The notes beneath the pieces are model-generated. The model made no database searches. It was not told where the DNA came from and was given only the letters and a program-made list of their open reading frames with translations. The translations under genes and the position numbers were made by a program. A stretch of DNA of 64,000 bases from Desulfosporosinus acididurans (GTDB taxonomy: Bacteria; Bacillota; Desulfitobacteriia; Desulfitobacteriales; Desulfitobacteriaceae), in assembly GCF_001029285.1 (NCBI RefSeq), contig NZ_LDZY01000006.1, positions 1-64,000 on the forward strand, in the 5' to 3' direction. This document shows positions 1 through 15,677 of this stretch, one piece after another. Numbering within the stretch: the first letter of the stretch is position 1; every line of letters begins with the position of its first letter.

Positions 1-671
1 TTTTTCTTAATTCCCCAGTGAGGCATCTGCGGGATTTGCTGTTCGATCGCCTTAAAATCAAGAGGAAGTTGTGCTTCAATTTTCTTCTCAAAGAGGGGTC
101 GATTCTCTTCCAGTTCCTGTTGCTCTTTGAGCCATTTCTCCCGTTCCGCTTTCGGTTTTCGTCCGCGTTTTTTGGGGGTTTGCTCGACTGGGGCCTCTTC
201 TTCTTTCTTTTTCTCAGGTTTACGATCTCTCGCTTCAATATGAGTAGCATCGATGGCGATAACATCCCCATCGATGAAGCCTTCTTGAAACGCCTGAGAG
301 ACTAGTTCATTTTGAATGTTTCCTAAAGCAGAAGAGACATGGATTTTTTGAATCATCCGAGTATAAGAGGACTCACTAGGGACTGAATCTGCCATCGTAA
401 AACCGCAGTTGAAACGGAATTCCAAGCTATTTTTTAATCGTTTTCGTAAGTCTTTAATCGTAGGAATTCGTTCGATGACTCGAATGAATAAGGAGTAGAT
501 CATGGCAGAATAGTTAAGTCTTGTTGGAGCTCCGAGTATTGCTCTTTTGGAAACAACTCTCAACAACGAGGTGATGTCAAGTGTATCGAAAATGAGGGGA
601 TATGATTTTTTGGGAGACATTTCTAAAATTTCCTCCAAGGAAAATAGCCTTTCTTGGCGAATACTAAACAT
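1..671 (-). CDS. IS1182/IS4-like transposase, N-terminal part (runs off window)
   Basis: The reading frame opens at the ATG at 671 and stays open for 223 codons to the window edge. The N-terminal half resembles the DUF772-type domain of IS1182/IS5-like transposases. It is followed by an IDATHIEARD motif, which carries the first catalytic Asp of a DDE transposase, and then a Lys/Pro/Glu-rich linker (KKRGRKPK). The remaining catalytic residues would lie beyond position 1. No frameshift is visible, so the element may be intact. Family assignment is from motif recognition, and IS1182 versus another IS4-superfamily group is not certain. Confidence 0.8.
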   Translation of the reverse strand, partial: MFSIRQERLFSLEEILEMSPKKSYPLIFDTLDITSLLRVVSKRAILGAPTRLNYSAMIYSLFIRVIERIPTIKDLRKRLKNSLEFRFNCGFTMADSVPSESSYTRMIQKIHVSSALGNIQNELVSQAFQEGFIDGDVIAIDATHIEARDRKPEKKKEEEAPVEQTPKKRGRKPKAEREKWLKEQQELEENRPLFEKKIEAQLPLDFKAIEQQIPQMPHWGIKK

Positions 672-795
672 TGGGAGTACTCCTATCTACCTCTCGGTGT
701 TGGTTTGGTCGCTTACACTTTTTCGAGGTTTTGGGGAGGTACTCCTCTTTTTGTCCTTAAAAAGATTAGTAATATCAATGGGTTCAAGTTATGAA
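1..795 (-). mobile_element. Insertion sequence, transposase-proximal end
   Basis: The element contains the transposase and about 120 bases upstream of its ATG. The end must lie near 780-795, because the adjacent FkbM-type reading frame loses family similarity there. I cannot mark the exact terminal inverted repeat or the target duplication, since the other end is outside the window. The repeated AGTACTCC/GTACTCCT words around 674-745 may belong to the terminal or promoter region. Confidence 0.55.
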
Positions 796-1292
796 ACTAA
801 TTCAATTTCCGAAGGAAAATACTGATCTAAATCTAAAATTTCTTTGAGATTGGAATCATCAATTTCACATCGAAATTTTATTATATTATTTAGGGTTTTT
901 CTTGACTGATCATCAGTTAAAATTTCTCGTAATAAATTTATTTTCTCTATATTATTTATAATAATTTTTTTGTCATAAAGATTATTAATAAGTCCATGAC
1001 AATAAATAATAGAGTAATCATTAAACCCCATAAGGTCTAATTGGTTTTTAATTTCTGAAAAAAAGTTACTAGCGATAAAAATATGAAGATTAGGCATTAA
1101 ATTAATCAAATTATCTGGCGAAATTATTTTTATTCCGAAAAGAGCTTTTCCCCACTTATTACTATCATTATCAATGAAATAGCTAATGTTTAGACCATTG
1201 TCTTTTAAATAATTAAAAACATATTCTCCACATTTTGATGCGCCGAAAATAACTAACGTATTATTTTTAAATTTATTTAAAGCTGTGCTCAT
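789..1292 (-). pseudogene. Truncated FkbM-type sugar methyltransferase (N-terminal fragment)
   Basis: A 167-residue product starts at 1292 with a good ribosome site (GAAGGAGAG). The N-terminus has a Rossmann-like pattern (LVIFGASKCGEYV, then YFIDNDSNKWG), as seen in proteins that join an NAD-binding/CoA-binding-like domain to an FkbM methyltransferase. The end (DQYFPSEIELV) matches the point where such proteins enter the SAM-binding domain (typically YFP...E.FVD.G), but a stop follows at once. The methyltransferase half is therefore missing, most simply because the neighbouring IS inserted here. The gene is much more AT-rich than its neighbours, which suggests transfer. In a flagellin glycosylation island it would have methylated a glycan. 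The fragment is probably non-functional. Confidence 0.65.
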
Positions 1293-1433
1293 ATTCTTTA
1301 CTCTCCTTCATTTAAAGAAGTTTCAATAGAAATCTCCTGCTACATTACGGAGATTGCCGAAAGTAATTATTTTTACTTTACATCGTTGAAGGGAATCTAG
1401 GAATGATGCTTGTTCAAACTAGTCACTCTCCCG

Positions 1434-2606
1434 CTATTTCGCGCTAATAATACGAGACAACGTACCCACCAGATCATAACCATCCCATATAACATCAATA
1501 TCCATGGCATCCCCTATTGGGACAATTCTATCAATCCCAGGAATCTCATTGGCAATAACAAAGTTCTGCAGTTCATCTTTTTCCAGTCCAAAATAAGTCA
1601 TCGTCTGATATTTTTCAGTTATAAAGGGTATCAAGTCTCTATAATCCTGAATGGCAAATTCATAGAAGTAGCCATTCTTTCCCCTCAAACATGTCAAATC
1701 GTTGGGCAAATTAACCAAATCAATGCGATAAAGCAAGTTGCTTTCATGGTATGTTCCTTGAATAGTATTCATCTCAATAATGTCTTCACAAAGATGACTA
1801 TACTTATCCATTGCTGCGGCCTGTTCGAGAATATAGTGCCGGTTTACATAAGATTTTACCGAGCCCCAGAAACGTTCACGAGCCTCCCTGCTATCCTGCA
1901 GCCAAAAGACAGTTTGCGGTGAAGAACAGGCATTTTGATCCATTAGATACGTATCATTGTAAAATCGTTCAGCAAGTTTATTCATTATGGCTTCATCCGC
2001 CTCGATGATAGCCTCACCGTTTATGATGGCTATCGAATAACGATCAGCAAAGGTAATATCCACACAACGAGGTTTTGAAGGCATGGCCTTAATTAATTTT
2101 ATGGTTTCATCTCCGCCCCAGATCACCCGTGCGTCCGCCATGGCAGAGAAGACGGAGGTGGTATCAGAATTCGCTGGATAAGAGATAATGGCATTTCTCT
2201 CTTTAAGCGTTGGAAATTCTGCGAAGACCTTCTCTATAGCTCTGCAAATGATTTGAACTTGCGGAAACGGCTTCGACGATACTCTGACAATATTGGAATT
2301 CCCGGCGAGCAGAGAAAACATCCAGGAAAAGGAAAAGTTTACGGGAATGTTTGAAGGAGCAATATGAAACGTCAATCCTCTGCCCAACCTGTTCTCATAG
2401 GGGCCATAGTTCTCTTTCAGCTTGGTAATATTTGCTTTTCTGCACCAGAAAGCGAACGACATGATATCCGAATACTCTTTCGCTTCTTTGCTATGCATCA
2501 GTACAGATGACAACCTATAAGCAAATTCACAAGCCATGCCGTTATAAGGCCTGGCGGGGACATTTACGATATTATCTGTGCCAGCCAAACAATTAACGCC
2601 GTTCAT
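1434..2606 (-). CDS. LuxC-like acyl-CoA/acyl-ACP reductase
   Basis: This is a 390-residue member of the LuxC branch of the aldehyde dehydrogenase superfamily, which reduces an enzyme-bound acyl thioester to an aldehyde with NADPH. The motif IAPSNIPVNFSFSW (about residues 85-98) is the nucleotide-binding/oxyanion signature. DQNACSSPQ (about 225-233) contains the catalytic Cys. The ATG at 2606 is preferred because the GGGGGTG ribosome site sits 11 bases upstream; the GTG at 2615 would be only 2 bases from it. The gene overlaps the luxE-like gene by 14 bases, so they are translationally coupled. No luciferase genes (luxAB) are present, so the role is probably glycan or lipid modification rather than light. 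The substrate is unknown. Confidence 0.82.
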   Translation of the reverse strand: MNGVNCLAGTDNIVNVPARPYNGMACEFAYRLSSVLMHSKEAKEYSDIMSFAFWCRKANITKLKENYGPYENRLGRGLTFHIAPSNIPVNFSFSWMFSLLAGNSNIVRVSSKPFPQVQIICRAIEKVFAEFPTLKERNAIISYPANSDTTSVFSAMADARVIWGGDETIKLIKAMPSKPRCVDITFADRYSIAIINGEAIIEADEAIMNKLAERFYNDTYLMDQNACSSPQTVFWLQDSREARERFWGSVKSYVNRHYILEQAAAMDKYSHLCEDIIEMNTIQGTYHESNLLYRIDLVNLPNDLTCLRGKNGYFYEFAIQDYRDLIPFITEKYQTMTYFGLEKDELQNFVIANEIPGIDRIVPIGDAMDIDVIWDGYDLVGTLSRIISAK

Positions 2607-3636
2607 AAGTATCACTGCACCCCCTTATTTCAGCTCCCTTAACCCTGCCATGAACTTTAAAATACTTTCCCAAGCGTCCGCAGGGACAGTCATCAACCCC
2701 TAATAGTTCCCCCTCATCCTCGGTCAGCAGAACGTGTCCCGGATAACTGGTGGGAAGCAGCGAAGTACATTGGATCAGACCTTTTCCGCTTGGCAGCTCT
2801 GAAAAATCGAGGGGATTACGAATGCTTATATCCGAAAAAATTGAGGCGTGCAGATGCCCGTACTCGCATTCCATGAAAATCGAACCGGTTTGTTCCACCA
2901 TACCGTAATAATTCAGAACCTGGTCAATACCCGCTGCTGAGCGGATTTCGTTTTTGAAAGTCTCATTATCGACAGATAAATCTCTAAGTTTCTTCCAGCC
3001 TCCCCCATGAATCATTACCCCGTTCAGGGAAAAGGAAATGCCTCGTTTCTTCAGGGCTAAATAAAAATGCTCCCATATCATGAAGGTAAAGCCAAAGACC
3101 AGGATTTTTTCCCCCGTATGTTTCTGACAAAAATCTTCAATGGCTTGGAGATTAAGGTTCATTTTTTCATCCAAGGCATACGTTATATCTCTGCCCAAGA
3201 TAGAAAAGCCCAATATACCGGCGCCTCGGGCTGAAAACATATCTCTGTTTTTGAGTACTGCGGTTGAATCAATGATCAACATAGGCATACGTGCTTTACC
3301 GGTAAAATCGGATACGATTTTTGCTAATACTTTCGTCTGCCGGGCAGAATTTTCACGATCTAAATAAATTTTCGAGACAGCTTGTCCTGTAGTACCGGAA
3401 GAAGTCATGGTTTTAACGATTTTCTCTTTATCAATACTCAATAATTCATATTTCTTAAAAAGCCGTACGGGCAGAGGCCTTCCTAAACCTAACACTTTTG
3501 AAAGCTTCTTGTATGCCTCGCAATGTTCATAATGGTGGCGGGATAACTCCATGACTGCTTGTTTGTATAAGTCGTCTTTATCAGATTGGCGCAGCCCAAA
3601 AGGCGGCATTACAAACAATGTTTCATAATTTATCAT
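2593..3636 (-). CDS. LuxE-like acyl-protein synthetase/acyltransferase
   Basis: A 347-residue protein of the LuxE/PaaK-like adenylating family. The TSSGTTGQAVS motif (about residues 78-88) is the ATP-binding P-loop of acyl adenylate formers. The C-terminal part keeps the YGMVEQTGSIF segment typical of LuxE. LuxE activates a fatty acid and passes the acyl group to LuxC, so its pairing with the LuxC-like gene implies a functional reductase complex. I place the start at the ATG at 3636, which forms an ATGA overlap with the stop of the acyl-AMP ligase gene. The GTG at 3642 is an alternative. The gene lies in a five-gene block with an acyl carrier protein, so the acyl donor may be carrier-bound. 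Confidence 0.8.
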   Translation of the reverse strand: MINYETLFVMPPFGLRQSDKDDLYKQAVMELSRHHYEHCEAYKKLSKVLGLGRPLPVRLFKKYELLSIDKEKIVKTMTSSGTTGQAVSKIYLDRENSARQTKVLAKIVSDFTGKARMPMLIIDSTAVLKNRDMFSARGAGILGFSILGRDITYALDEKMNLNLQAIEDFCQKHTGEKILVFGFTFMIWEHFYLALKKRGISFSLNGVMIHGGGWKKLRDLSVDNETFKNEIRSAAGIDQVLNYYGMVEQTGSIFMECEYGHLHASIFSDISIRNPLDFSELPSGKGLIQCTSLLPTSYPGHVLLTEDEGELLGVDDCPCGRLGKYFKVHGRVKGAEIRGCSDTYERR

Positions 3637-5024
3637 TTCCACTGCCCCAATTCAGAATATAAAATTTTCCCCGACTCATTGCGCGGAATGCTCTCAATTT
3701 TGCTAATCTCGAAGGCACTTCGATTAAGTCCGGTCAAGCCGGTCATTATTTTCAAAACTTCATCAGGCTCGCCGTGATCAAGATAAATTCTGACATGATC
3801 ATCTTCGCCGGCACAGGCTGCCTCAAACCCGCTTTTCTGGAGCAAACTTTCCAATTCATCCAGATTTACTCTGTTTCCATAGACTTTTAAAAACCGCTTT
3901 TTGCGGCCCACAATATAATAGAACCCATCTTCATCTCTCCTTGCCATATCGCCGGTCCTTAATATACCGCCCAACTCATCGCCCTTGGCTAAATCCTCTT
4001 GGCAGGTAGAATATCCCATCGTTACGTTATTTCCGTGATAAACAAGTTCTCCCGTTATATCGGGTTCATTAATCACCGAACCGTTATCGTTCTCAAGCCA
4101 AAATTTCCCGCCCGGAATCGAGATACCGATACTTCCCGCCTTACTAATTGAATACTCCTGGGGAACGTAAGACATCCGTGCCGTTGCCTCAGTTTGGCCG
4201 TACATGACTATGAAACGAATCCCTTTTTCAGCACAGCCCTGAGCAAACTCAAGATGCAGCTCCTTGCCCAATCTGCCGCCCGCTTGAGTCAGAACTTTTA
4301 GGGAAGGTAAATACATTCTTAAAAATCTCAAGCGCTTGAGCATTTCATAGGTGTAGGGAACGCCGCCGAAGGTGGTTGCCTGTTTTTCTTTAAGCAGTGA
4401 CCAAAATGATTTTTCCATTAGAGAGTCATTCGTTAAAATGATCGCTGCACCTTTGAGTAAATGGCTGTTAATAATTGACAGTCCATAGGTGTAACTCATC
4501 GGCAATGTGGTAATAGGCCTGTCGTCACCGCTAATCGTTAAGTACTGGGCGATGGATTCCGCATTATGATTAATATTACGATATGTTTGACGCACAAGTT
4601 TGGGACTACCCGTACTACCTGAAGTTGTGAGAAGCAAAGCCAGTTCCGGATGAAGTTCAGCCTTCTGCCCATACTCAGTTTTAATAAGAGCATAATCCTT
4701 ATACACATAGCGGGCTTGTCCTGGACAAAACCCTTTTGGGGCCCAAATATAGTTCGGTTCGTAAGTATGCAGCAAGCTAGCAAAGAGCTCTCTGTTAATA
4801 ACCGGGTTGATCATCACCGGAACAACCCGCATCTGCAAAAAAGCAATATATCCTGTAACTGATTCAACATTATTGCTGCAAAGACAAAAGACCAAACACC
4901 GATCATTTATTTGGGCGCGGAGATCATTCACCGCAATCTGTAACTGTGCGTAGCTCAAACACTCTTGCTCAGTAATAAGGGCCTTTTTTTCCCCAAACTG
5001 TTCAAGCTTATCGTAAAACGTCAT
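3633..5024 (-). CDS. Acyl-AMP ligase (AMP-dependent synthetase family)
   Basis: A 463-residue ANL-family adenylating enzyme. LLTTSGSTGSPKLV (about residues 131-144) is the P-loop motif A3, MYGQTEATARM is A5, GELVYHGNNVTMGY is A7, and ILRTGDMARRDEDGFYYIVGR contains the A8 hinge. The C-terminal NESGKILYSEL supplies the catalytic Lys. Such enzymes adenylate a carboxylic acid and load it onto CoA or a carrier protein. The gene starts 2 bases after the acyl carrier protein gene ends, so direct loading of that carrier is the likely job. It is slightly shorter than typical acyl-CoA ligases (about 500-550), as carrier-loading enzymes often are. The acid substrate cannot be read from the sequence. Confidence 0.83.
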   Translation of the reverse strand: MTFYDKLEQFGEKKALITEQECLSYAQLQIAVNDLRAQINDRCLVFCLCSNNVESVTGYIAFLQMRVVPVMINPVINRELFASLLHTYEPNYIWAPKGFCPGQARYVYKDYALIKTEYGQKAELHPELALLLTTSGSTGSPKLVRQTYRNINHNAESIAQYLTISGDDRPITTLPMSYTYGLSIINSHLLKGAAIILTNDSLMEKSFWSLLKEKQATTFGGVPYTYEMLKRLRFLRMYLPSLKVLTQAGGRLGKELHLEFAQGCAEKGIRFIVMYGQTEATARMSYVPQEYSISKAGSIGISIPGGKFWLENDNGSVINEPDITGELVYHGNNVTMGYSTCQEDLAKGDELGGILRTGDMARRDEDGFYYIVGRKKRFLKVYGNRVNLDELESLLQKSGFEAACAGEDDHVRIYLDHGEPDEVLKIMTGLTGLNRSAFEISKIESIPRNESGKILYSELGQWK

Positions 5025-5026
5025 AA

Positions 5027-5266
5027 TTACAGCTCCACTTCATATTTTGTCATGAACTCCTTACCCTTGTCGTAGGAACTGAAGTCAACAATGTCATCGG
5101 TATCGAACATAATGTCAAAAGCATCCTCCAGTGCTGCAATCAGCTGCATATGCCCAACACTGTCCCAGGCCTCAACCGACTGATAAACAAGGTCACTGTT
5201 CAATTGCTCTTCAGTTATATCAAAGGTCTCCATAAATGCCGTATTATATTTTTCCAAGTTTGTCAT
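5027..5266 (-). CDS. Acyl carrier protein
   Basis: A 79-residue acidic protein with the phosphopantetheine attachment motif WDSVGHMQL; the Ser near residue 36 is the expected modification site. It is distinct from the housekeeping fatty-acid ACP, which usually has DSLD at this site. The ATG at 5266 has a strong ribosome site (GGGAGGG) 8 bases upstream. It lies directly before the acyl-AMP ligase and 26 bases after the hydrolase gene. I infer a dedicated carrier for an acyl group that is activated by the ligase and then reduced or transferred by the LuxE/LuxC-like pair. Confidence 0.88.
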   Translation of the reverse strand: MTNLEKYNTAFMETFDITEEQLNSDLVYQSVEAWDSVGHMQLIAALEDAFDIMFDTDDIVDFSSYDKGKEFMTKYEVEL

Positions 5267-5292
5267 CCTTAAACCCTCCCTAGCATCATTCG

Positions 5293-5937
5293 CTAAAACT
5301 GATAGTTCTTAATCAGAAATTTTTCCCCATGCCCCGGATAGACAAGGGTGTCCGGCTGCAATGCCTTTAAAAAAGGTTTTGACGTTTCCTCAAAATCCTT
5401 AGACCCGTTTTTGTAATTCTTAGTCTCTGTTTTAACCTCAGGAAGCAATGTATCCCCGGAAAGGAGAATAGTTTTATCTAGCAGAATACAAATACTTCCT
5501 CTGGTATGGCCCGGTGTTTCTATGAGTTCAATTGTATGGCCCTGCCAGTCAAAGCTCTGATAATCAGAGAAGGTATCATCGGCAGTACAGGAATAGGGTT
5601 CAACCTTTGGCGCCTCCCCTTTTTTTAGGCCATTTTGAATAATACAGTAAGCTTCAAAGTGACGGGAATAATTTAAGCGGGAATCGATAATTCTCTCAGC
5701 ACAAGCTTTACTGCAGAGCACTTGACATTCAAACTCTTTCTTAAAAGCATTAACCCCGCTGATATGATCATAATGTTCGTGGGTAAGAAGCAGATAATCT
5801 ACACTCCCTCCCCATTTCCTTATTTTTTGCAGAAGTTCTTCTGTGGCATAGGGATCTATGATCAGAATGTGTCCGTCTTCAATGAATATATACATGTTTG
5901 ACTTAAGAAATGGTGTAATAAACGTTTTAATTTCCAT
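5293..5937 (-). CDS. Metallo-beta-lactamase-fold hydrolase (glyoxalase II-like)
   Basis: The 214-residue protein has the metal-binding motif THEHYDHISG (about residues 52-61), a later ETPGHTRGSICILL with a His ligand, SGDTLL with the bridging Asp, and a C-terminal YPGHGE His. These are the seven ligands of a dinuclear MBL-fold thioesterase or glyoxalase II-like enzyme. I chose the ATG at 5937 because CAGGAG lies 6 bases upstream; the frame opens earlier at 5976 but overlaps pseG. Its position between pseG and the ACP gene suggests thioester hydrolysis, possibly clearing a mis-loaded carrier or cleaving an acyl intermediate. That role is inferred. Confidence 0.78.
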   Translation of the reverse strand: MEIKTFITPFLKSNMYIFIEDGHILIIDPYATEELLQKIRKWGGSVDYLLLTHEHYDHISGVNAFKKEFECQVLCSKACAERIIDSRLNYSRHFEAYCIIQNGLKKGEAPKVEPYSCTADDTFSDYQSFDWQGHTIELIETPGHTRGSICILLDKTILLSGDTLLPEVKTETKNYKNGSKDFEETSKPFLKALQPDTLVYPGHGEKFLIKNYQF

Positions 5938-5956
5938 AGAAACTCCTGAACCAGAT

Positions 5957-6991
5957 TTAACAATGTTTAATTGCATTAGTGAAGGTACTAACGCTGTTCA
6001 CAATGTTAGCGACTCCTTCTCTGCAAACGAGTTGGAGAATCTTCTGACGAATTCGCTTTCTTTCCGCCGGAGTATCCAGAAGGGTATTCACGGCTTCAGA
6101 CAATGCTGAAGAATCCACATCGGTATAGTTTCCTAAGACAAGAGAAAGATTATATCTCTCTAAAATTTGCTGTAAAGGCAGCTGGTTAGCAGCCTGCAGC
6201 ACAAACAAGGGCACAACTCCCATAGCAAATAATTCTTTGACCGTTCCGCCGCCGGCAGAGATTGCTATATCACATTGGGCCATAAGTTTCGCCATTGACA
6301 CAGGATTCCTGATAATCTCCACTTGGCTTTGGCACAAGTCTGCTGCACGTTCAATAGCGCCGATATTCTCCATGAGCGGCCCACAGATCACTTTTAGATT
6401 AATATTTTCAAGTTTACCCAAAGCCTTTAAAACAACGGGAGTAAAATTCCGGACATCGGCACCGCCCATGGTAATAAGTATCGTTTCGACGTGTTCACGG
6501 AATGGAGCCGGTGAGATTTCCCGAAATTCCTGCCTAAGAATACTAAACTTATGACCCAGAAGCTTTAGTTTTACATTGCTGGAACTATAATCTTTAGCAA
6601 GAGCATCGAAGTTGTCGTTGACAATCACATCACAGTCATAGCGATAAGTTAATGAACTGTCATCAATCGCAGCAACAACCGCTCCCGATTGTTTTAAAAC
6701 TGGGTAATACTCATCAATGAGCCAATAAGAATCAACAAAAACAACATCTGTATTACCTCTGCTTAAATATGAGGCCAATTCAAAGGCTTCCTCCAGCAGT
6801 GAAGAATGTTGTTTAAGTTCAACAGCCTTAAACCCCTTTTCCCGCAGCCAATTCAGGCCCTTCGACTGGTACTCAGAATAAAAAACGACTGAGTCGCCCT
6901 GGCGAATGAACTCAGAGGCAATCGCACTGCAGCGCATAAGGTGTCCCATACCCTTTTTTCCGTCTCCGTCAGCACGAAAGGCAATGTTCAT
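5957..6991 (-). CDS. pseG: PseG, UDP-2,4-diacetamido-2,4,6-trideoxy-beta-L-altropyranose hydrolase
   Basis: A 344-residue GT-B-like protein that removes UDP from the bacillosamine-type altrose precursor in CMP-pseudaminic acid synthesis. The N-terminus (AFRADGDGKKGMGHLMRC) has the Gly-rich loop and GHLMR motif of the PseG family. ITMGGADVRN and ISAGGGTVKELFAMG (about residues 255-270) form the UDP-binding part shared with MurG-like proteins. The length matches the family. It starts immediately after the pseI stop codon, so the two are one transcript. The catalytic His proposed for PseG is retained in GHLMRC. The assignment is firm at family level and is supported by the neighbouring pse genes. 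Confidence 0.9.
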   Translation of the reverse strand: MNIAFRADGDGKKGMGHLMRCSAIASEFIRQGDSVVFYSEYQSKGLNWLREKGFKAVELKQHSSLLEEAFELASYLSRGNTDVVFVDSYWLIDEYYPVLKQSGAVVAAIDDSSLTYRYDCDVIVNDNFDALAKDYSSSNVKLKLLGHKFSILRQEFREISPAPFREHVETILITMGGADVRNFTPVVLKALGKLENINLKVICGPLMENIGAIERAADLCQSQVEIIRNPVSMAKLMAQCDIAISAGGGTVKELFAMGVVPLFVLQAANQLPLQQILERYNLSLVLGNYTDVDSSALSEAVNTLLDTPAERKRIRQKILQLVCREGVANIVNSVSTFTNAIKHC

Positions 6992-8038
6992 TTATTTAAC
7001 CAGCTCCCACCTTAATGGCGTTCCCATCTCGATATCACAAGCTGCTTTTCTGCCCAGAATTTCATAATAATATCGAGTATGCAGCCCTTTTCCCGGCCTT
7101 ACAGAACGAAGATTCTCTGCCGTAAATTCTTCGCCGGACTTAATGTCTTTGCTGACATACAGCGACCGTCTGAACCCCCGGCCATATAATTCGTCCTCTC
7201 CGTAACTATAGGGCGTCTCGCCAATCGCCGCCTGCGTTGCCCTCACCTCATCGACCATCTGCTTGAACTCTTGAGGTTCCATGGAAAAACTGCTGTCGGG
7301 ATTTTTAATACGTCTATCGAGACAAAAATGTTTCTCGATAATCCTTCCCCCAAGTGCGACGGCAATGACTGAGGCCAGCGAACCCATCGAATGATCTGAC
7401 AAGCCGGAAATTACATCAAAGCGTTCTGCTAAATCAGAGACTGTAATCAGATTCATTTTTTGTGGAATTGCCGGATACAGGGTGGAGCATTTAAGCAAAG
7501 CTAACTGATCGTTTCCTGTGCTTCGAACTGCCATCACTGCCTCTTCAATTTCCTCGACACTAGCCATTCCGGTAGAAATAATCATGGGTTTCCCTTTTTC
7601 TGCAGCATATTGAATCAAGGGAATATCAACAATCTCTGAAGAAGCTATCTTATAAAAATCTACATTGAGATCTTCCAGAAAATCAACCGCTGTGTTATCA
7701 AAGGGCGTAGACAAAAAATCGAGACCGATCTTTTCAGCCTCCTCCTTGATCTTGCCTTGCCATTCCCAGGGGGTATAAGCCTCTTTATACAAATCATGGA
7801 GATTGTATCCGCTCCAAGTACCGCTTTGAAGCATAAAATCCGGTTTCCGGCAATCGAGAGTTATGGTATCAGCCGTATAAGTCTGAACTTTGACACAGTC
7901 TGCTCCGCTTTCCTTGGCAGCATGAACGATTTCTAAGGCATTAGACAAAGATCCGGCATGATTAGCGCTCATTTCCGCTATTATATAAGCAGGGTTTTGC
8001 TGGGAGATAATTCTGTTTCCAATTCTTAATTCTTTCAT
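6992..8038 (-). CDS. pseI: PseI, pseudaminic acid synthase
   Basis: A 348-residue NeuB-family enzyme that condenses phosphoenolpyruvate with the hexose released by PseG to form pseudaminic acid. The N-terminal TIM barrel carries AEMSANHAGSL (about residues 21-31), FLSTPFDNTAVDFL, KIASSEIVDIPLI and ISTGMAS. The C-terminal part after about residue 290 is an antifreeze-like SAF domain (RSLYVSKDIKSGEEFTAENL). HCLDRRIKNPDSSFSMEPQEF is the part that binds substrate. It overlaps pseH by 4 bases (ATGA), which indicates translational coupling. Specificity for pseudaminic rather than legionaminic or sialic acid is inferred from the accompanying pseB, pseG and pseH. Confidence 0.92.
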   Translation of the reverse strand: MKELRIGNRIISQQNPAYIIAEMSANHAGSLSNALEIVHAAKESGADCVKVQTYTADTITLDCRKPDFMLQSGTWSGYNLHDLYKEAYTPWEWQGKIKEEAEKIGLDFLSTPFDNTAVDFLEDLNVDFYKIASSEIVDIPLIQYAAEKGKPMIISTGMASVEEIEEAVMAVRSTGNDQLALLKCSTLYPAIPQKMNLITVSDLAERFDVISGLSDHSMGSLASVIAVALGGRIIEKHFCLDRRIKNPDSSFSMEPQEFKQMVDEVRATQAAIGETPYSYGEDELYGRGFRRSLYVSKDIKSGEEFTAENLRSVRPGKGLHTRYYYEILGRKAACDIEMGTPLRWELVK

Positions 8039-8580
8039 AGCTCTATCTCCAGTTTGTTGTATTTAAAACGTGTTTTGCCGGCTGCCCATTCTTCTTTCAG
8101 CATTGAACAAACGATAACATCGAAATATTCACCATTTTTATAGACAGCCTTCCGCAAAACTCCTTCTTGGGTATAGCCATTAAGCACCAACATTTTCGCA
8201 ACTCTTTGGTTGTTGCTCATTACCTCCGCTTGGATACGATTGAGCTTCAAGATGTCAAAAGCAGCCGTTAACAAACCGGTTTCCTGCGCTATCACCGTGC
8301 CAAAATCTCTGTCCTGCCGTTCGGCTATATATCCACCGGATTTGCAGCAAAGATTTTGATAGTCAATTCCAACTAAACTGGCTATACCTACCGGTTTATC
8401 GTGCACCATCGTAATCCAATGCTTTTGTGTAGGGTCAGTTTGAATTCTCCGGAACCACTCGCGCTGTCCGTCTAAGGTGAGAACGGGATCTGTAAACATG
8501 ACCCTGGTAATATCCGGACGCATACGCCAGTTCATAATCATTTCCAAATCAGATTCCTGTATTTTCCTCCATTGAACCAT
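8035..8580 (-). CDS. pseH: PseH, UDP-4-amino-sugar N-acetyltransferase
   Basis: A 181-residue GNAT-fold protein (RimJ/RimL type). MNWRMRPDITRVMFTDP near the N-terminus is typical of PseH. The acetyl-CoA-binding part is near IAERQDRDFGTVIAQET, and the C-terminus has the usual RIQAEVMSNNQRVAKML and GYTQEGVLRKAVYKNGEY. It acetylates the C4 amino group made by the aminotransferase PseC. I chose the ATG at 8580, 8 bases after GGGGGATGG; the frame opens at 8592. A 157-base gap without a gene separates it from pseF, unusual in this otherwise tightly packed operon. A TTGACC...TTTTAT pair in that gap could be a weak internal promoter. Confidence 0.9.
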   Translation of the reverse strand: MVQWRKIQESDLEMIMNWRMRPDITRVMFTDPVLTLDGQREWFRRIQTDPTQKHWITMVHDKPVGIASLVGIDYQNLCCKSGGYIAERQDRDFGTVIAQETGLLTAAFDILKLNRIQAEVMSNNQRVAKMLVLNGYTQEGVLRKAVYKNGEYFDVIVCSMLKEEWAAGKTRFKYNKLEIEL

Positions 8581-8737
8581 TTTTATCACCATCCCCCAAA
8601 AAGCAAGTTTTTGTGAGTCTGTCGGTTAATATCATCTTCCGCTAGGTCTACCTAGGTTGTTTAGAATAAATAAAAATCCAGAGGAAGCCTTAGGTCAAGA
8701 AGTTGTTAGAAGTTTTAACAAGCCCCTGTCAGGAGAA

Positions 8738-9472
8738 TTACTTTTTGGGATCCTTTTGCTGAATATGCCCATTTATGGTCTGCAGTTCAGGACTATGATC
8801 CATTAACTCAATAACTTTTTGCAAATCAATAATTTCGCGCTGACTAAGCAAGATCTCGTAGATACTTCGAATAAGTTGAATATCTGCCGGAGTATCAACA
8901 GTAAGCCTATAATTAGGACGATGCATCCATGCCGGTGCTTCCACAGATGCCAAACGGAATTTTTCCGGGTGTTCATACATATGGATCGTTACATGTTCCC
9001 GTTCGTAGGGCTGATGGGCTGTTTCATGGGCAAGCTTAAGAGCTGCAAAGGTAAAGACTTCACCGGTAAGCCCCCTTGGCAAGGGTTTACTATTAAATGA
9101 TAGATAATCAACGTTTCTTTGTTCAATCTCCCCGATAAGTTCATCAATACCTTCATAATCCACAAGAGGGCAGTCCGCAGTCACTCGCACAACGATATCA
9201 GCCTGATACTGGCAGGCCGCATCGTAATAACGTGCTAAAACATCTAATTCGCTTCCCCGAAAAACAGAAGTGTTTCTTTCTTGACAAAAACGAGCAATTA
9301 AATCATCTTCTGGATTTGAGCTTGTAGCTACAACGACTTCAGTTATACGCTGAGAATGACTGAGCCGGACAAGAATATGATCCAGCATCGGTTTGCCGAC
9401 AATATCCATCAGAACTTTGCCTGGTAATCTCTCCGATCCCATTCTGGCCTGAATTATACAAACGACTCTCAT
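8738..9472 (-). CDS. pseF: PseF-like CMP-pseudaminic acid cytidylyltransferase
   Basis: A 244-residue nucleotidyltransferase of the SpsF/acylneuraminate cytidylyltransferase type. IIQARMGSERLPGKVLMDI (residues 6-24) is the nucleotide-binding signature, with RVTADCPLVDYEGIDELI carrying the metal-binding Asp and LTVDTPADIQLI near the end. The family activates pseudaminic acid with CTP. The call as PseF rests on its place in the pse operon, since SpsF-like proteins are otherwise broadly annotated as glycosyltransferases. Start ATG at 9472, preceded by GGCGGGAACGAG. The length is normal and no damage is visible. Confidence 0.82.
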   Translation of the reverse strand: MRVVCIIQARMGSERLPGKVLMDIVGKPMLDHILVRLSHSQRITEVVVATSSNPEDDLIARFCQERNTSVFRGSELDVLARYYDAACQYQADIVVRVTADCPLVDYEGIDELIGEIEQRNVDYLSFNSKPLPRGLTGEVFTFAALKLAHETAHQPYEREHVTIHMYEHPEKFRLASVEAPAWMHRPNYRLTVDTPADIQLIRSIYEILLSQREIIDLQKVIELMDHSPELQTINGHIQQKDPKK

Positions 9473-9562: not shown

Positions 9563-10201
9563 TTAGCGCAGATAGTGGGCGATAACCTTATGGACTGCTT
9601 CAATAACATCTTGAACATCCTGATCCTTCATCGCCGGAAAAGGCGGCAAGGTCACGATCCGTTCATAAAACCTCTCGGTTTGAGGACATTCCGGACGATA
9701 ATCCAGACGAACGCCTTGGTAACTTGCACCATAAGCGTGAGCAGCATCCTCAATAATAGTCAAGCCATACTTTTGCGAGATTTGGCGAATTTTATCTATT
9801 TCTACAGGTCTGCCCGTATAATCTACAGGTATGATAGTCCTGGTTTTTGGCGTAATAAGGTCTTCAATCGTTTCTGGATCAATATTTCCCGTCAGAGGAT
9901 CAATGTCGGCAAACACCGGATGTCCTTTTTGATATAGCACACAATTAGCCGAGGCAGCAAAGGTCATAGGCGTTGTGATTACTTCATCATTTTCCCCAAT
10001 TCCTGCAGCAAAAGCCGCGCCCACATATGCCGCGACCTCCTGTTCAAACTGTGCAATCGCGGGTCCCGTTGTCAAAAAGTCCCCGCGCAGAATCTGAGCA
10101 ACTGCTTCAACATCCTCGTCGCCAATCCACTGTTTGCCATAAGGGAGATAAGTATCACGTACTGGTTTTCCGCCGCAAATAGCTAATTGTTCGGTCATCA
10201 T
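9563..10201 (-). pseudogene. pseC: Degenerate PseC aminotransferase (two in-frame deletions)
   Basis: The 212-residue frame is clearly homologous to PseC/DegT aminotransferases but is only about 55% of the usual 375-390. The start (QWIGDEDVEAVAQILRGDFLTTGP) and middle (ITTPMTFAASANCVLYQ, IIEDAAHAYGASYQG) are normal. Between AAYVGA and FAAGIGENDEV about 20 residues are missing, including the phosphate-binding SNGTAAL-type loop. After GASYQG the protein jumps to the C-terminal VRLDYRPECPQTERFYERI, so about 170 residues are absent, including the SFHPVK-type segment with the PLP-binding Lys. Both losses keep the frame. The product cannot be an active aminotransferase, so UDP-sugar amination must come from another gene or the pathway is dead. 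Confidence 0.8.
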
Positions 10202-10304: not shown

Positions 10305-11258
10305 TTAGGTACTTATAACATCGGGTTGCTCACTCATCCAAGTCCTTATCCTTAATAATCCATCCTCAAGACTAACTTTTGGTTCCCAATTTAAGAGTTC
10401 TTTAGCTTTATTGGCATTGCAAAGTAATTTCTGAATCTCACTTTGAGGATGAATATGAGCAATGTGGTTAATTTGACGAGCATCTCCACAAATTTTATAA
10501 GCCAAACCGTTAATGGAAATATCTTTTCCTAAACCGGCATTGATAATTTGACCATTAACAGAATCACTCAGCCCTGCTGCCACGACAAAACGAGCACAAT
10601 CCTCAACGTACAGCAAGTCGCGAGTTTGTTCCCCGGAACCATAAATATTTAATGTTTCATCTTTAAGAGCCTTACTGGTGAAAATGCTGACCACTCCGCC
10701 TTCTCCGGAGGCTTTCTGTCTCGGGCCATAGGTGTTAAAGGGACGTATGACCACAGTAGGCAAACCATAAGCATAAAAATAGGACAGCACCATATTCTCT
10801 CCAGCGATCTTTGAACCGGCATAAGGAGAAGCAGGCTTAATCGGTGAATTTTCATCGATCCCCTTGGTGCCTGTCGCTTTGTCATAAACCATGCAAGTGC
10901 TCATAAACACCATTTTAACACCATGGTTTCGACAATATTCCAGAACATTAAAGGTTCCAATCACGTCATTTTCAAAGGTTGTCTGAGGATCATCAATACT
11001 GTCTTGGACATTGATGCTGGCGGCTAAATGGTAGCATACAGCAAAGTCATTGGCGAACAGTTCCTCAAGGATACGATTATCTTTAATATCGCCGCGTATA
11101 AAGCCTTTAAACCCACTACTCTTAACATAAGATTTCAAGTTCTCCTCTGAACCATTGGATAAATTGTCTAAGGTCCAAACCTCATGTCCATCCTGTAATA
11201 ACTGAGCAACAACCCAAGAACCGATAAACCCGGCGCCTCCAGTAACTAATGCCTTCAT
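10305..11258 (-). CDS. NAD-dependent sugar epimerase/dehydratase (extended SDR)
   Basis: A 317-residue extended short-chain dehydrogenase. TGGAGFIGSWV (residues 6-16) is the NAD-binding Gly motif, HLAASINVQDS follows strand 4, and SPYAGSKIAGENM (about 147-159) contains the catalytic Tyr and Lys of the YxxxK motif. RPFNTYGPRQ and RDLLYVEDCARF are typical of UDP-glucose 4-epimerase-like enzymes. It overlaps the 3' end of pseB by 4 bases, so it is co-translated, yet the standard six-enzyme pseudaminic pathway has no such step. It may make an additional sugar for the flagellin glycan or an epimer of a pathway intermediate. The substrate is not determined. Confidence 0.82.
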   Translation of the reverse strand: MKALVTGGAGFIGSWVVAQLLQDGHEVWTLDNLSNGSEENLKSYVKSSGFKGFIRGDIKDNRILEELFANDFAVCYHLAASINVQDSIDDPQTTFENDVIGTFNVLEYCRNHGVKMVFMSTCMVYDKATGTKGIDENSPIKPASPYAGSKIAGENMVLSYFYAYGLPTVVIRPFNTYGPRQKASGEGGVVSIFTSKALKDETLNIYGSGEQTRDLLYVEDCARFVVAAGLSDSVNGQIINAGLGKDISINGLAYKICGDARQINHIAHIHPQSEIQKLLCNANKAKELLNWEPKVSLEDGLLRIRTWMSEQPDVIST

Positions 11259-12274
11259 TGCCTATCCTCTCCAGTCAAAAGTTCTGCAGCCAGCAAACGG
11301 CGTATCTCGTTATGAGTGAGAACTTGTCCCCTTTCAGAGCTGTAATTTCCCTCAGAAGCTTTCTTAGCCGGATGTTTGACGGTTCTATTGCCGCCAAAAG
11401 GAGCAGGAATAGCATACATATGTGTGTATTCATAAGCATTCTTAGACTCTTCTGAAGTCATGAGTTCCTCATACATCTTCTCACCCGGTCGAAGCCCGAT
11501 CTGCTGGACTTCCACTTCACTAGCTTTAATTCCATATTTTTCGCAAACAAGATCGATAATGACTTCCGCAAAATCGCCTAAGCGTACAATAGGCATTTTA
11601 AATACAAAAACTTCACCGCCAACTGCAAGCTTTATGGCTTCCAGTGTTAAGCGCGTTGCTTCAGAAACGGTCATCATAAAACGAGTCATCTCCGGAGAAG
11701 TTAAGGTAATTCTACGCTGCTTAAGAATCTGCTGCTCAAATAAGGGAATCACAGACCCTCTAGATCCCATAACATTGCCAAAACGCACGGCTGAAAAAAC
11801 AGTAGAACCTGAACCTTTTTGATATTCGGCAGCGACAATTAAACGCTCTGCCATCAGTTTTGTAGCGCCCATCGCATTTGTCGGGCTAATCGCTTTATCT
11901 GTGCTGGTAAAAATAACTTTCTTCGCTTTAGATTCTAAAGCTGCTTGTATTACATTTTGAGTGCCGACAATATTCGTTTGAACTGCTTCAAAAGGATTGT
12001 ACTCACAGGCCGGTACATGTTTTAAAGCAGCTGTATGGAATATATAATCAATTCCCTCAAAGGCTCGCACCAGACGGGAATAGTCTCTTACGTCTCCTAA
12101 TAAGAAGCGAAGATTCGGAGTTCCCTGATATTGTTGCTGCAATTCAAACTGTTTAAACTCATCACGACTGTAAATACGAATAACTTCCGGCCGCTCTGCA
12201 AGCAGGGCCTCCAATAGAGACCGCCCTACAGTCCCTGTTCCACCGGTGATTAAAATTCGTTTTCCTTTAAACAC
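11255..12274 (-). CDS. pseB: PseB, UDP-N-acetylglucosamine 4,6-dehydratase (inverting)
   Basis: A 339-residue SDR enzyme that starts pseudaminic acid synthesis by 4,6-dehydration and C5 inversion of UDP-GlcNAc. TGGTGTVGRSLL (about residues 10-21) binds NADP. STDKAISPTNAMGATKLMAE shows the Met-x-x-x-Lys variation of the YxxxK motif that marks the inverting FlaA1/PseB group, and KHVPACEYNPFEAVQTN is conserved in the family. The reading frame opens at 12406, but I choose the GTG at 12274 because AAAGGAG lies 9 bases before it and the resulting length fits PseB. It overlaps the epimerase gene by 4 bases. Confidence 0.9.
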   Translation of the reverse strand: MFKGKRILITGGTGTVGRSLLEALLAERPEVIRIYSRDEFKQFELQQQYQGTPNLRFLLGDVRDYSRLVRAFEGIDYIFHTAALKHVPACEYNPFEAVQTNIVGTQNVIQAALESKAKKVIFTSTDKAISPTNAMGATKLMAERLIVAAEYQKGSGSTVFSAVRFGNVMGSRGSVIPLFEQQILKQRRITLTSPEMTRFMMTVSEATRLTLEAIKLAVGGEVFVFKMPIVRLGDFAEVIIDLVCEKYGIKASEVEVQQIGLRPGEKMYEELMTSEESKNAYEYTHMYAIPAPFGGNRTVKHPAKKASEGNYSSERGQVLTHNEIRRLLAAELLTGEDRQ

Positions 12275-12460
12275 TGACCGAACTCCTTTCTGCCTTACAT
12301 TCAGACTTCCGAGAAAACCTTCAGAAAAAGAAGTCTTTTTGTGCCGGAAGATGATCACTGAGCTGCCACAGATATACCGATACTGCTGTTGAATGAGATA
12401 AGGCAAGACGTTGTGTGATATAATCAGATGTTGGAAAACACCATTTTTCCAGATCCTCTG

Positions 12461-13642
12461 TTAGCTCATGCTTATTTTCTTCTTCATAGTATAAACTTCT
12501 ACGATTTCAATAATTTTTTCGGCTCTATTCCGCCATGTATGTTTTGTCTCAGCTTTCTTTCTTCCTTTATTTGCAATTGCTGAAATTTGATCAGGCTTTG
12601 AAAGATAGTCTGCAATTTTGTCCGGAAGAATATCAAGATCTCTCCAGTCAAATAAAAGAATTTCCTCCTCGGATTCAAATGCTGAGGCAAAATATTGATT
12701 GTTGTCTGCAACCGCCATTGCTCCGTTAAGCATCGCGGAGAAAACCCTTTCATGGGATCCGTTAGCAAAGTTCGGACCAATATTTAGAACAATTTTCGAC
12801 TTATTCATTAACTTCAACATACTTAAAAAGTCTACCGGCTGATGTATTCTTAATGAGCTTGCACGATAGATATCTTCCCATCCATTCCCATAAATGTCGA
12901 CTTCTATGCCGCTTTTTGCCAAAACTTCGATAACCTTTTCTCTTCTGCGAGCTCGGATAAATTGATCAACTGGACGAAGAAGCAAGTTCAATTTATAAGA
13001 CAATTCGTCATCCACGTATATATCACGGTTTTCGATCAGCTTATTCAGTGAATCCTCCATTGAAATACCATTTTGCCATAAGGTCGCTTCAATTACTTCA
13101 TCTAGAATTCTCTTTATATAGTTTGGTAAATCTTTGATTGGCTCATAAGCATGGTTAGAATTTAGATATGATCCCCCAAAGAGAACATTGATCTTCCTAT
13201 TGCTTTCATCGGAGTCATTATCACCGATCCATTTGCTTCCTCCATGAGGTAGAAAAGCCTTTGTCGCTTGGTGTTTTACCTGCTTTAAATAATTAACATG
13301 ATCACGATCGACACATGTTACAATCATGTTTTTCACTAAGCCAAGCCTTTCTTCATGATACAAAGGGTGATCCACGAGTACCGCTACAAAAGGGATGTCT
13401 AAAACATCATACATGTTTTGATTATCCAAATTAATAGCACCCCCCATAGCATTAAAGGCTACGGCAAATTCACAGGGTTGAGAAAACGCCTTGTTAAGTT
13501 CATCGTTCATATTTGGCGAAAGCAAATCGACAATATAGACTTCTTTTCCTAATTGTTGGCTAAAGGCAGCACCCAGTTGGTCAATAAAAATTCTAAGAAC
13601 ATCATACTGCGATTGCCCTTTTAAAAGCACTATTCTACCCAT
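12461..13642 (-). CDS. CgeB-like glycosyltransferase
   Basis: A 393-residue protein with the layout of CgeB/GT1-like glycosyltransferases: an N-terminal Rossmann-like half with VAVLVDHPLYHEERLG and VTCVDRDHVNYLKQ, and a C-terminal nucleotide-sugar-binding part with VDIYGNGWEDIY, RIHQPVDFLSML, KIVLNIGPNFANGSHERVFSAMLNGAMAV (read in two pieces, about residues 282-310). The start ATG at 13642 has GAGGTAAC upstream. CgeB-type proteins decorate spore or flagellar surfaces. Between the Maf gene and pseB, it is a candidate to transfer a sugar to flagellin or to extend the glycan. Donor and acceptor are unknown. Confidence 0.72.
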   Translation of the reverse strand: MGRIVLLKGQSQYDVLRIFIDQLGAAFSQQLGKEVYIVDLLSPNMNDELNKAFSQPCEFAVAFNAMGGAINLDNQNMYDVLDIPFVAVLVDHPLYHEERLGLVKNMIVTCVDRDHVNYLKQVKHQATKAFLPHGGSKWIGDNDSDESNRKINVLFGGSYLNSNHAYEPIKDLPNYIKRILDEVIEATLWQNGISMEDSLNKLIENRDIYVDDELSYKLNLLLRPVDQFIRARRREKVIEVLAKSGIEVDIYGNGWEDIYRASSLRIHQPVDFLSMLKLMNKSKIVLNIGPNFANGSHERVFSAMLNGAMAVADNNQYFASAFESEEEILLFDWRDLDILPDKIADYLSKPDQISAIANKGRKKAETKHTWRNRAEKIIEIVEVYTMKKKISMS

Positions 13643-13811: not shown

Positions 13812-15677
13812 CTATTTTTCCTCTTGCGCCAGATTAGAAACAGCATCTTCGAGAATCTTTTTAAGTTTCGCCAGGAAGTCATTTAAATCCAAAAACATTT
13901 CCTGCAATAATTTAGCTTTATTAATAACCATTTCCTCTGTATGATCATCCATAATACCATTATTTAAGTTTATATAATCACCCATCCTGCTGACATATTC
14001 AGGTCTGAACAGGGAGTATATCCAATCATCGGCAATAATGTCATAAGCTATCTGATACATTTGGTTTAAGTACCTTTTTTTAATCTCAATAGAAATATTA
14101 ACATCTCGAACAAATTCATACATATTCGCAGCTCGTATATAAACCTGTTCGGCTATACTCAATTTCTTAATTCTTGTCATAAACGATTGCTTGATTATTT
14201 CAATTCTCTCTTCGTATAGGATATCTTGAGAATAATCATCTAGCCAATTTGCAAAAGAAGTTTTCTTAGGCGAACCTATACCAACATATTCTTCCATAGC
14301 TTCCTGCAAGGTCATTTGAACAGTACCCATAATTTTGGCTCCACCTTCAGTTGCATTAATGAGTAACGTCGGATAGCGCTCCAAGAATATTTCATACCAA
14401 TCTCTGAAAAATTTCCATGTTATTTGCGATGGTACCTTTTCTCCGTAATAGCCCTCTAAATAGACAACTTCAGATAGAGACTCTAAATTTACTTTAGCCT
14501 GATCGTATACACTTCCTGCACTATGAGTATGTCCTTCTTCGCCAAAAGCTAAATCCTGACCAATTAAAATAATTGCCGTAGCGCCAATATGACGGGCAAA
14601 AACAAAGGTAGAATGGGTTACCGATAATCCTAGGGGCATAATACCGTTCCCCAAAGCATGAGCCAACTCGTGCCCGAAATATTCTCCTCCTCCGAAGATA
14701 AATAAATGATGCTTAAACAAACTTGCACTGCGTGAGTCAATAACCGGGTTAGCGACTAAGACAATGGACTCAGGAATTGGTTCATCCCTCTTATAATGCT
14801 TTTCCGGAATAAGAGGGGTTCTATCCACACTAAAAGTAGCATCTGGAACTATCCCATTGTCCAATAATTTATTAAAAACAGTATTCACGCAAAAAATCGT
14901 GACTCGATCTTGCCATTCCTTAAGCACAGCAATATTCTTATTCAGAGATGGTCCCGCCAAAACAATTACCACCGGCTTTTTCCAAGTATTATAAATACGG
15001 TCAAGTGATGGTGAAGCGGCCAAATAAGGGACATGCTTTACGTGATTAGTCAAGCCTTGAACCGGCCAATTCAAATCACTCCCTAGGCCATGACGATGAT
15101 ACTGTAAAGTTTCAAGAACATAATGTCTTATTTCTTGTACTGATGGCAACTCTAAACGGTATTTCGGAGGAAAGTATAAGAAACCGATTCTCTGCAGCTT
15201 AAGCATTACTTTTCCTAAGATAAAAAGTCCGTCCAAAATAGCCCTGATTTCTGATGGTTTGCCAAAAGCCAAGACGACTCGACCGGTAGCTATTATTTCC
15301 TCAAAATCGATTACGTGCATTGCGGCTTTCACGATATCCCAATCTGTCTCTAAGACAAAAATAAGAGTTGATTTTGGTGTTTGATCTAATAACTCGATCA
15401 AATGATAACCTAAGCCTAAACCAAAAAGAAAAATTGAATGATAAGAGGCAATATCCCCTCCGGCAATCAATATTGAGGCCTCTTCCAAAGGGGCATAAGC
15501 GCTATGCAGGAGAATATCCTGCCCTTCTATTCGCTTTGTTGCCGTATAGTACCCCGTCTCACCCATTATTAGACTTACCGAGGAAGGTCTGTGCGAATCT
15601 AAGACCTGTTCTTCGAACCCTTGAGAGATAAGATAGGCTAAATTTTTCTCAAAAAAAGTCACATTAATCATCCTCAT
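13812..15677 (-). CDS. Maf-type flagellin glycosyltransferase (DUF115)
   Basis: A 621-residue motility-associated factor. The central part, about residues 230-420, is the DUF115/MptE-like Rossmann domain: VIVLAGPSLNKNIAVLKEW, FCVNTVFNKLLDNGIVPD, SVDRTPLIPEKHY and ATAIILIGQDLAFGEEGHTH. The N-terminal part LFLFGLGLGYHLIELLD-like segment (about 84-97) is also typical. Maf proteins attach nonulosonic acids (pseudaminic or legionaminic) to Ser/Thr of flagellin in the cytoplasm before export. The gene overlaps the 92-residue upstream gene by 4 bases (ATGA). Placed between fliS and the pse genes, it is the likely end user of CMP-pseudaminic acid. If pseC is truly dead, its donor must come from elsewhere. 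Confidence 0.85.
   Translation of the reverse strand: MRMINVTFFEKNLAYLISQGFEEQVLDSHRPSSVSLIMGETGYYTATKRIEGQDILLHSAYAPLEEASILIAGGDIASYHSIFLFGLGLGYHLIELLDQTPKSTLIFVLETDWDIVKAAMHVIDFEEIIATGRVVLAFGKPSEIRAILDGLFILGKVMLKLQRIGFLYFPPKYRLELPSVQEIRHYVLETLQYHRHGLGSDLNWPVQGLTNHVKHVPYLAASPSLDRIYNTWKKPVVIVLAGPSLNKNIAVLKEWQDRVTIFCVNTVFNKLLDNGIVPDATFSVDRTPLIPEKHYKRDEPIPESIVLVANPVIDSRSASLFKHHLFIFGGGEYFGHELAHALGNGIMPLGLSVTHSTFVFARHIGATAIILIGQDLAFGEEGHTHSAGSVYDQAKVNLESLSEVVYLEGYYGEKVPSQITWKFFRDWYEIFLERYPTLLINATEGGAKIMGTVQMTLQEAMEEYVGIGSPKKTSFANWLDDYSQDILYEERIEIIKQSFMTRIKKLSIAEQVYIRAANMYEFVRDVNISIEIKKRYLNQMYQIAYDIIADDWIYSLFRPEYVSRMGDYINLNNGIMDDHTEEMVINKAKLLQEMFLDLNDFLAKLKKILEDAVSNLAQEEK

Follow-up and report, generated by a model that had tools for sequence, protein, structure and literature searches.

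A LuxE/LuxC-type cassette in the flagellin island of Desulfosporosinus acididurans and a candidate aldehyde-extension route to surface glycans

The lux-type cassette and its catalytic sites

The first 64,000 nucleotides of contig NZ_LDZY01000006.1 (here C6) of Desulfosporosinus acididurans (assembly GCF_001029285.1), referred to as the window, carry a cassette of five minus-strand genes directly after pseG in a pseudaminic acid and flagellin island. The cassette encodes (i) a metallo-β-lactamase (MBL)-fold hydrolase of the glyoxalase-II-like type, a putative thioesterase of the module whose nearest solved structures are hydroxyacylglutathione hydrolases, (ii) an acyl carrier protein (ACP), (iii) an AMP-forming acyl ligase, (iv) a LuxE-like acyl-protein synthetase, and (v) a LuxC-like acyl reductase (Table 1). 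The original prediction, made from the letters of the sequence, had described these genes as one tight block, and the open reading frames, family scores and spacing bear it out: PseG and the hydrolase overlap by 20 bases, the ligase and LuxE by 10 bases, and LuxE and LuxC by 23 bases, with gaps of 26 bases between the hydrolase and the ACP and 2 bases between the ACP and the ligase, so that no overlap or gap exceeds 26 bases. An inner ATG at position 5937 offers an alternative start for the hydrolase and agrees with the block end noted earlier. No short-chain dehydrogenase/reductase (SDR) was found among the open reading frames of the block. Among the related loci described below, LuxC adjoins LuxE in 71 of the 72 having both on one strand, and the arrangement is therefore not attributable to chance.

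The site residues of the five proteins are conserved in their homologues, including the acyl-cysteines C342 of LuxE (81/81) and C230 of LuxC (80/80), K453 of the C-terminal motif of the AMP ligase (80/80), and the MBL metal ligands H66, H68, D70, H71, D175 and H216 (11/11). The serine site predicted for the ACP is likewise confirmed, the D35-S36 pair being kept in 61 of 61 homologues despite a Pfam score under the cut-off, and this carrier is likely loaded by the neighbouring AMP ligase.

The reference for LuxE and LuxC is the LuxCDE fatty acid reductase, represented by the LuxC-LuxE complex 7xc6, with which the window proteins have both families and both acyl cysteines in common. LuxE can be aligned end to end with its 7xc6 counterpart, C342 standing opposite the C-terminal cysteine, and C230 of LuxC matches the cysteine of the DQQAC motif. 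The window proteins are nevertheless very distant from LuxCDE (31 to 46 bits), and the cassette brings an AMP ligase and an ACP of its own and lacks a luciferase context. The cut-offs of the long-chain (bioluminescence) equivalog families are missed by a wide interval, at 44.3 bits against 750 for LuxC and 46 bits against 550 for LuxE. Judged by sequence, the window LuxC and LuxE form a branch apart from the long-chain enzymes that luminous bacteria possess.

Related loci and aldehyde-using partners

A scan of 84,980 species genomes yielded at least 526 confirmed LuxE loci, of which the best 80, at 53-66% identity and from many phyla, were read. These 80 loci, four further loci from the family and phylum, and the window make up a set of 85, in which all proteins were clustered; cluster names were checked with hidden Markov models for some clusters and taken from reading representative sequences for the remainder. 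The set contains the AMP ligase in 80 loci, LuxC in 77, the ACP in 60, a FabG-like SDR in 55, each of two transketolase halves in 34, a DegT aminotransferase in 30, NeuB in 15, FabZ in 15, a type II thioesterase in 13, the MBL hydrolase in 11, and a thiamine diphosphate (ThDP) enzyme in 10. The MBL hydrolase and the type II thioesterase share no locus, though at these numbers chance may account for it.

The genomic setting of the family differs from that of the window. With the window left out, 46 of the 61 long loci carry at least one sugar-cluster marker, and flagellin, Maf or close pse homologues occur in only a handful of the 84 other loci. The linkage to pse or flagellar genes that had been anticipated across genomes accordingly fails for the family: nearly all 84 loci are without such genes, and a general flagellar link is ruled out. 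The family is better named a surface-sugar module, placed within a flagellin island in the window's genome.

Among 46 genomes of the window's family, this LuxE occurs in one other only (G005, 75% identical), where the gene order is MBL, ACP, ligase, LuxE, LuxC, SDR, SDR, transketolase N half and transketolase C half, within a surface-sugar cluster. The phylum sample of 398 genomes gave a LuxE match in six, three of them besides the window's at 50% identity or more. Searches of phage records found none with this LuxE, and those of plasmid records found 13, of which 10 are from Rhizobium. On a Rhizobium anhuiense plasmid (locus L129, 5203-17386) the region comprises transketolase halves, ACP, ligase, DegT, LuxE, LuxC, SDR, a GMC oxidoreductase and FabZ; it is without polysaccharide polymer genes and may be a small-molecule cluster. 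Butyrivibrio proteoclasticus likewise has the genes in one contiguous row.

The partner genes point to what LuxE and LuxC supply. Aldehydes are the acceptors for the two-carbon ketol unit moved by transketolases and for the phosphoenolpyruvate that NeuB attaches, and they are also what LuxC produces. Across the 85 loci, the 35 having at least one transketolase half and the 10 having the ThDP enzyme do not overlap (Fisher P=0.004), and the ThDP gene is accompanied by NeuB in 10 of 10 loci and by FabZ in 9 of 10. At locus L083 (4667-6591), genes for an acetaldehyde dehydrogenase and a 4-hydroxy-2-oxovalerate aldolase, both over their cut-offs, lie upstream of ligase, LuxE and LuxC; this aldolase joins pyruvate to an aldehyde and represents a third kind of aldehyde-using partner after transketolase and NeuB/ThDP. 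Since all three kinds use aldehydes, the simplest reading is that LuxE and LuxC would supply the aldehyde acceptor for carbon-carbon bond formation.

The window's genome also holds such a partner. It encodes three split transketolases, two housekeeping-like and a third on contig C10, where the order SDR, transketolase, fliS, maf, maf, FkbH, ACP, acyltransferase runs beside the main fli/flh genes; in a tree the C10 transketolase groups with the lux-linked ones, apart from the housekeeping ones. The specialised transketolase pair and a FabG-like SDR are thus both present. Only two of the 46 genomes of the family have the specialised transketolase, and they are the same two that bear LuxE (P=0.001 if the genes were independent); this shared distribution is good evidence for a joint function of LuxE/LuxC and the transketolase in the window's genome, despite their separate positions. 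Two further features of the C10 flagellar locus (L110) may be recorded: FkbH, ACP and an AAC(3)-like acyltransferase after the two maf genes (783-3652), resembling a glyceryl-ACP module for flagellin sugar decoration, and a radical SAM/SPASM protein (10923-12302) between a glycosyltransferase gene and the SDR-transketolase genes.

Two loci of one genus, and hence not independent, show a different setting (L010 and L011, 6300-10750): MBL, LuxE, LuxC and ligase stand without an ACP beside a sigma-54 regulator and RpoN-type genes, with genes for a 4-hydroxybutyryl-CoA dehydratase (in L011 matching 1u8v at 782 bits), a CoA-transferase and an alcohol dehydrogenase nearby. The 4-hydroxybutyrate genes, which run in the opposite direction to the cassette, hint that a C4 acid may be the substrate.

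Proposed chemistry, precedents and rival explanations

With confidence a little better than even, and on comparative grounds, the cassette is read as converting a carrier-bound small acid to an aldehyde whose subsequent extension would serve a glycan of flagellin or of the cell surface; any given end product is held with less confidence than this scheme. The AMP ligase, its site residues in place, would adenylate a small carboxylic acid and load it onto the ACP. By analogy with the Lux enzymes, the conserved cysteines of LuxE and LuxC would bear the acyl group and reduction by LuxC would give the aldehyde, while the MBL hydrolase may release or edit the thioester, a role that the type II thioesterase would take at other loci. 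The split transketolase would then give the aldehyde a two-carbon ketol unit, probably followed by reduction by the FabG-type SDR; the genes for both enzymes are present on C10 beside fliS and maf. The hydroxylated product would become a building block of the Maf-added flagellin glycan, most likely as a substituent, acyl or chain, on an amino sugar, and the DegT aminotransferase, FkbM methyltransferase and acetyltransferase genes on contig C42 may belong to the same sugar path.

The original prediction had an acyl or aldehyde group decorating the flagellin sugar. Its carrier-bound chemistry is upheld by the intact residues, and its flagellin-sugar setting by the FliC, FliD, FliS, Maf and pse genes of the island. 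The aldehyde is probably not the final decoration, since the transketolase and NeuB partners suggest an intermediate for carbon-carbon extension. The five genes can also be rejected as a complete pathway: the contig breaks off within an insertion sequence, and the transketolase, reductase and aminotransferase genes lie on contigs other than that of the cassette.

A wider version is put forward tentatively, as a possibility given less than even confidence. It envisages a widespread and undescribed route in which a carrier-bound small, perhaps dicarboxylic, acid would be converted via LuxE/LuxC to a semialdehyde and extended by the two-subunit transketolase or by NeuB/ThDP, yielding hydroxylated acyl chains or higher-carbon sugars of a novel class for flagellin and capsules in many phyla.

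Several observations weigh against the extension scheme: (i) the loci read are the top of a similarity ranking and come mostly from metagenome-assembled genomes of gut Clostridia; (ii) in the window's genome the cassette and the transketolase lie on different contigs with different neighbours, and the transketolase is not adjacent to luxE/luxC, whereas in G005 they share a single gene row; (iii) some relatives are without any transketolase or ThDP gene, including L010/L011 and L012, the latter a nonulosonate cluster with its own NeuB for the sugar; and (iv) a damaged pseC and two insertion sequences in downstream genes indicate that the island may no longer work.

The gene set itself has precedents, compared here through published accounts. 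In group II Aeromonas, exemplified by Aeromonas piscicola AH-3, orf1 (ACP), orf2 (FabG-type), orf3 (AMP synthetase), luxE and luxC directly follow pseH, and for 98 Aeromonas strains the published islands place an ACP, FabG-type reductase, AMP ligase, LuxE and LuxC beside pse genes (PMC7874193). The parallel drawn with Lux homologues in Aeromonas islands was sound, and the claim that the cassette was the best candidate for an undescribed system falls, the set having been published for these strains and for Enterobacteriaceae, whose flagellin islands hold Acp, LuxE, LuxC, CaiC and FabG (PMC4875605). The window and Aeromonas group II have in common the ACP, AMP ligase, LuxE and LuxC in one direction beside pse and maf genes; the window differs in (i) an MBL hydrolase in place of the reductase of orf2, (ii) a Firmicute host, (iii) a specialised transketolase and reductase at a second flagellar site, and (iv) a split FkbM gene followed by DegT, rather than the fgi-1 glycosyltransferase, downstream of luxC. 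The five enzyme types of the enterobacterial islands are alike, and their authors read them as fatty acid synthesis or a liposugar, whereas a short aldehyde intermediate is proposed here (PMC4875605). No experimental test of the lux-type genes was found in the Aeromonas and enterobacterial papers, these genes are unmentioned in papers on Clostridium and Geobacillus flagellin islands, and no publication was found linking flagellin-island lux-type genes to transketolase. The cassette is thus real and known in outline from Gammaproteobacteria, and its partner set looks new.

Precedent for the proposed chemistry comes from the azinomycin and vazabitide azabicycle pathway, in which a carboxylate is converted to a semialdehyde, extended by two carbons by a transketolase pair and passed to an aminotransferase, although the route there runs through a kinase and a phosphate reductase, or through an amino-group carrier protein, instead of AMP ligase, ACP, LuxE and LuxC (PMC9570651). 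The Shewanella sfmABCDE operon, encoding NeuB, a ThDP enzyme and an SDR, has a NeuB and ThDP pair like the partners in ten related loci but lacks LuxE, LuxC, ligase and ACP (PMC3765264).

Three rival explanations compete with aldehyde formation and extension. That the cassette furnishes an N-acyl donor for pseudaminic acid is considered unlikely: ligase and ACP would give a short hydroxyacyl group (dihydroxybutyryl would fit), LuxE/LuxC and a reductase would help to form the acid, and PseH or a relative would attach it instead of acetyl. The cassette does stand directly after pse genes both here and in AH-3, and the fgi-1 mutant of AH-3, which keeps the pse and lux-type genes, has a single pseudaminic derivative of 376.14 Da that fits Pse5Ac7Ac (316.127) plus C2H4O2 (376.148), the change from acetyl to dihydroxybutyryl by our own arithmetic on one strain pair, while A. 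caviae Sch3 has plain Pse5Ac7Ac. Against this, the derivative of A. hydrophila AH-1 has a mass of 403 Da and other routes to heavier sugars may exist, no report of a lux gene deletion in Aeromonas was found, most homologous loci are without pse genes, and the window PseH scores as an ordinary PseH. A fatty aldehyde or lipid-sugar, in which a reduced fatty acid would give the flagellin glycan a lipid part, is very improbable. Homology to LuxC/LuxE and FabG speaks for it, and both the Aeromonas and the enterobacterial papers suggested a lipid-like sugar part (PMC7874193, PMC4875605); however, the shortfall of LuxC and LuxE against the long-chain cut-offs, the absence of elongation genes from most loci, the frequent presence of aldehyde-using transketolase or NeuB/ThDP genes, and AH-3 flagellin with no reported mass of a long acyl chain all argue the other way.

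The remaining alternative, a dead or dying island whose remnant genes make nothing any more, is given somewhat less credence than the N-acyl donor and clearly more than the lipid. It would account for the loss of the PseC active-site lysine through three in-frame gaps, with no other PseC over the cut-off, and for the insertion sequences interrupting both the FkbM gene and the transferase gene after it. However, no reading frame is broken among the five cassette genes or in pseB, F, G, H and I, the active sites of the cassette are intact, three in-frame gaps in a single gene could be an assembly fault, and an ancestor in which the island functioned would have required a mechanism like the one proposed.

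Lux-type genes have long been recorded in flagellin islands and attributed to fatty acids, and annotation now hides them under 'acyl-CoA reductase, bioluminescence'. The exchange of partners between transketolase and NeuB/ThDP, together with the matched presence of LuxE and transketolase across one bacterial family, makes a clear and testable chemical proposal, which if true would add carbon-carbon extension chemistry to bacterial glycan biosynthesis.

The surrounding island and the contig end

Upstream of the cassette lie pse genes, glycosyltransferase and maf genes (Table 1), and fliS, fliD and flagellin (FliC) genes, the fli genes being assigned by reading their sequences. The pse operons of two genus-mates, which were read, have flagellin-linked pse genes without the cassette, and the cassette is therefore probably an acquired insertion. 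PseB, H, G, I and F accompany a PseC that is internally deleted, so that the set is not intact: PseC is short of about 170 residues, the pyridoxal-binding lysine among them, through three gaps that keep the frame and measure 16, about 130 and about 40 residues, with no stop and no frameshift. The gap pattern is odd for simple decay and is perhaps an assembly fault. Rescue by another PseC in the genome can be set aside, as no further protein reaches the cut-off of 423.5; the strongest remaining DegT protein scores 333 and is not located in a pse cluster. Pseudaminic acid may therefore not be produced from this genome, unless the assembly has an error at pseC.

Table 1. Features at the start of the window, in order of position
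Feature	Position	Strand	Evidence or remark
Insertion sequence, 5' part (DDE-type transposase)	1..807	-	cut by contig end; 86% identical to full copy on contig C10
FkbM methyltransferase gene, N-terminal half (167-aa frame)	789..1292	-	split by insertion sequence
LuxC-like acyl reductase, acyl-cysteine C230	1434..2615	-	PF05893 108 bits, cut-off 21
LuxE-like acyl-protein synthetase, acyl-cysteine C342	2593..3642	-	PF04443 166 bits, cut-off 24.9
AMP-forming acyl ligase	3633..5024	-	PF00501 140 bits, cut-off 29.9
ACP, Ser36 in W-D-S	5027..5266	-	PF00550 17.7 bits, under Pfam cut-off 20.8
MBL-fold hydrolase, glyoxalase-II-like, putative module thioesterase	5293..5976	-	PF00753 Lactamase_B 66 bits, cut-off 22.7
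PseG	5957..6991	-	TIGR03590 179 bits, cut-off 153.6
PseI, pseudaminic acid synthase	6992..8038	-	TIGR03586 473 bits, cut-off 340
PseH N-acetyltransferase	8035..8592	-	TIGR03585 101 bits, over cut-off
PseF-like cytidylyltransferase	8738..9472	-	operon position and similarity to genus-mate gene, E 7e-55
PseC remnant, 212 aa, internally deleted	9563..10201	-	compared with 386-aa PseC of two genus-mates
NAD-dependent sugar epimerase	10305..11258	-	PF01370 208 bits
PseB-like dehydratase	11255..12406	-	similarity to genus-mate PseB, E 8e-131
Glycosyltransferase (Glyco_trans_1_2)	12461..13642	-	PF13524 86 bits
Maf flagellin glycosyltransferase	13812..15677	-	PF01973 115 bits and PF20157 37 bits

Downstream of luxC the contig ends, position 1 of the window being the start of C6 and lying within the insertion sequence by which an FkbM gene is split. 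The second FkbM half (PF05050, 57 bits) lies on contig C42 (locus L125, 727-1284), which begins 45 bases further into the element. With the element removed, the flanks give a single 349-aa FkbM protein and a 4-base target duplication, AATT, and the bases adjoining AATT are the element's own terminal repeat; because of the shared AATT and the rejoined frame, C42 very likely follows C6. C42 continues with a complete DegT aminotransferase, DesI-like at 289 bits and under its cut-off, and then with an apparent acetyltransferase gene start, read from its first codons and interrupted by another copy of the element. Diverged copies of this DDE-type element (84-100% identical) also occur on C42, C10, C18, C19 and C2; the assembly is interrupted at this element, which has also split two genes of the glycosylation operon.

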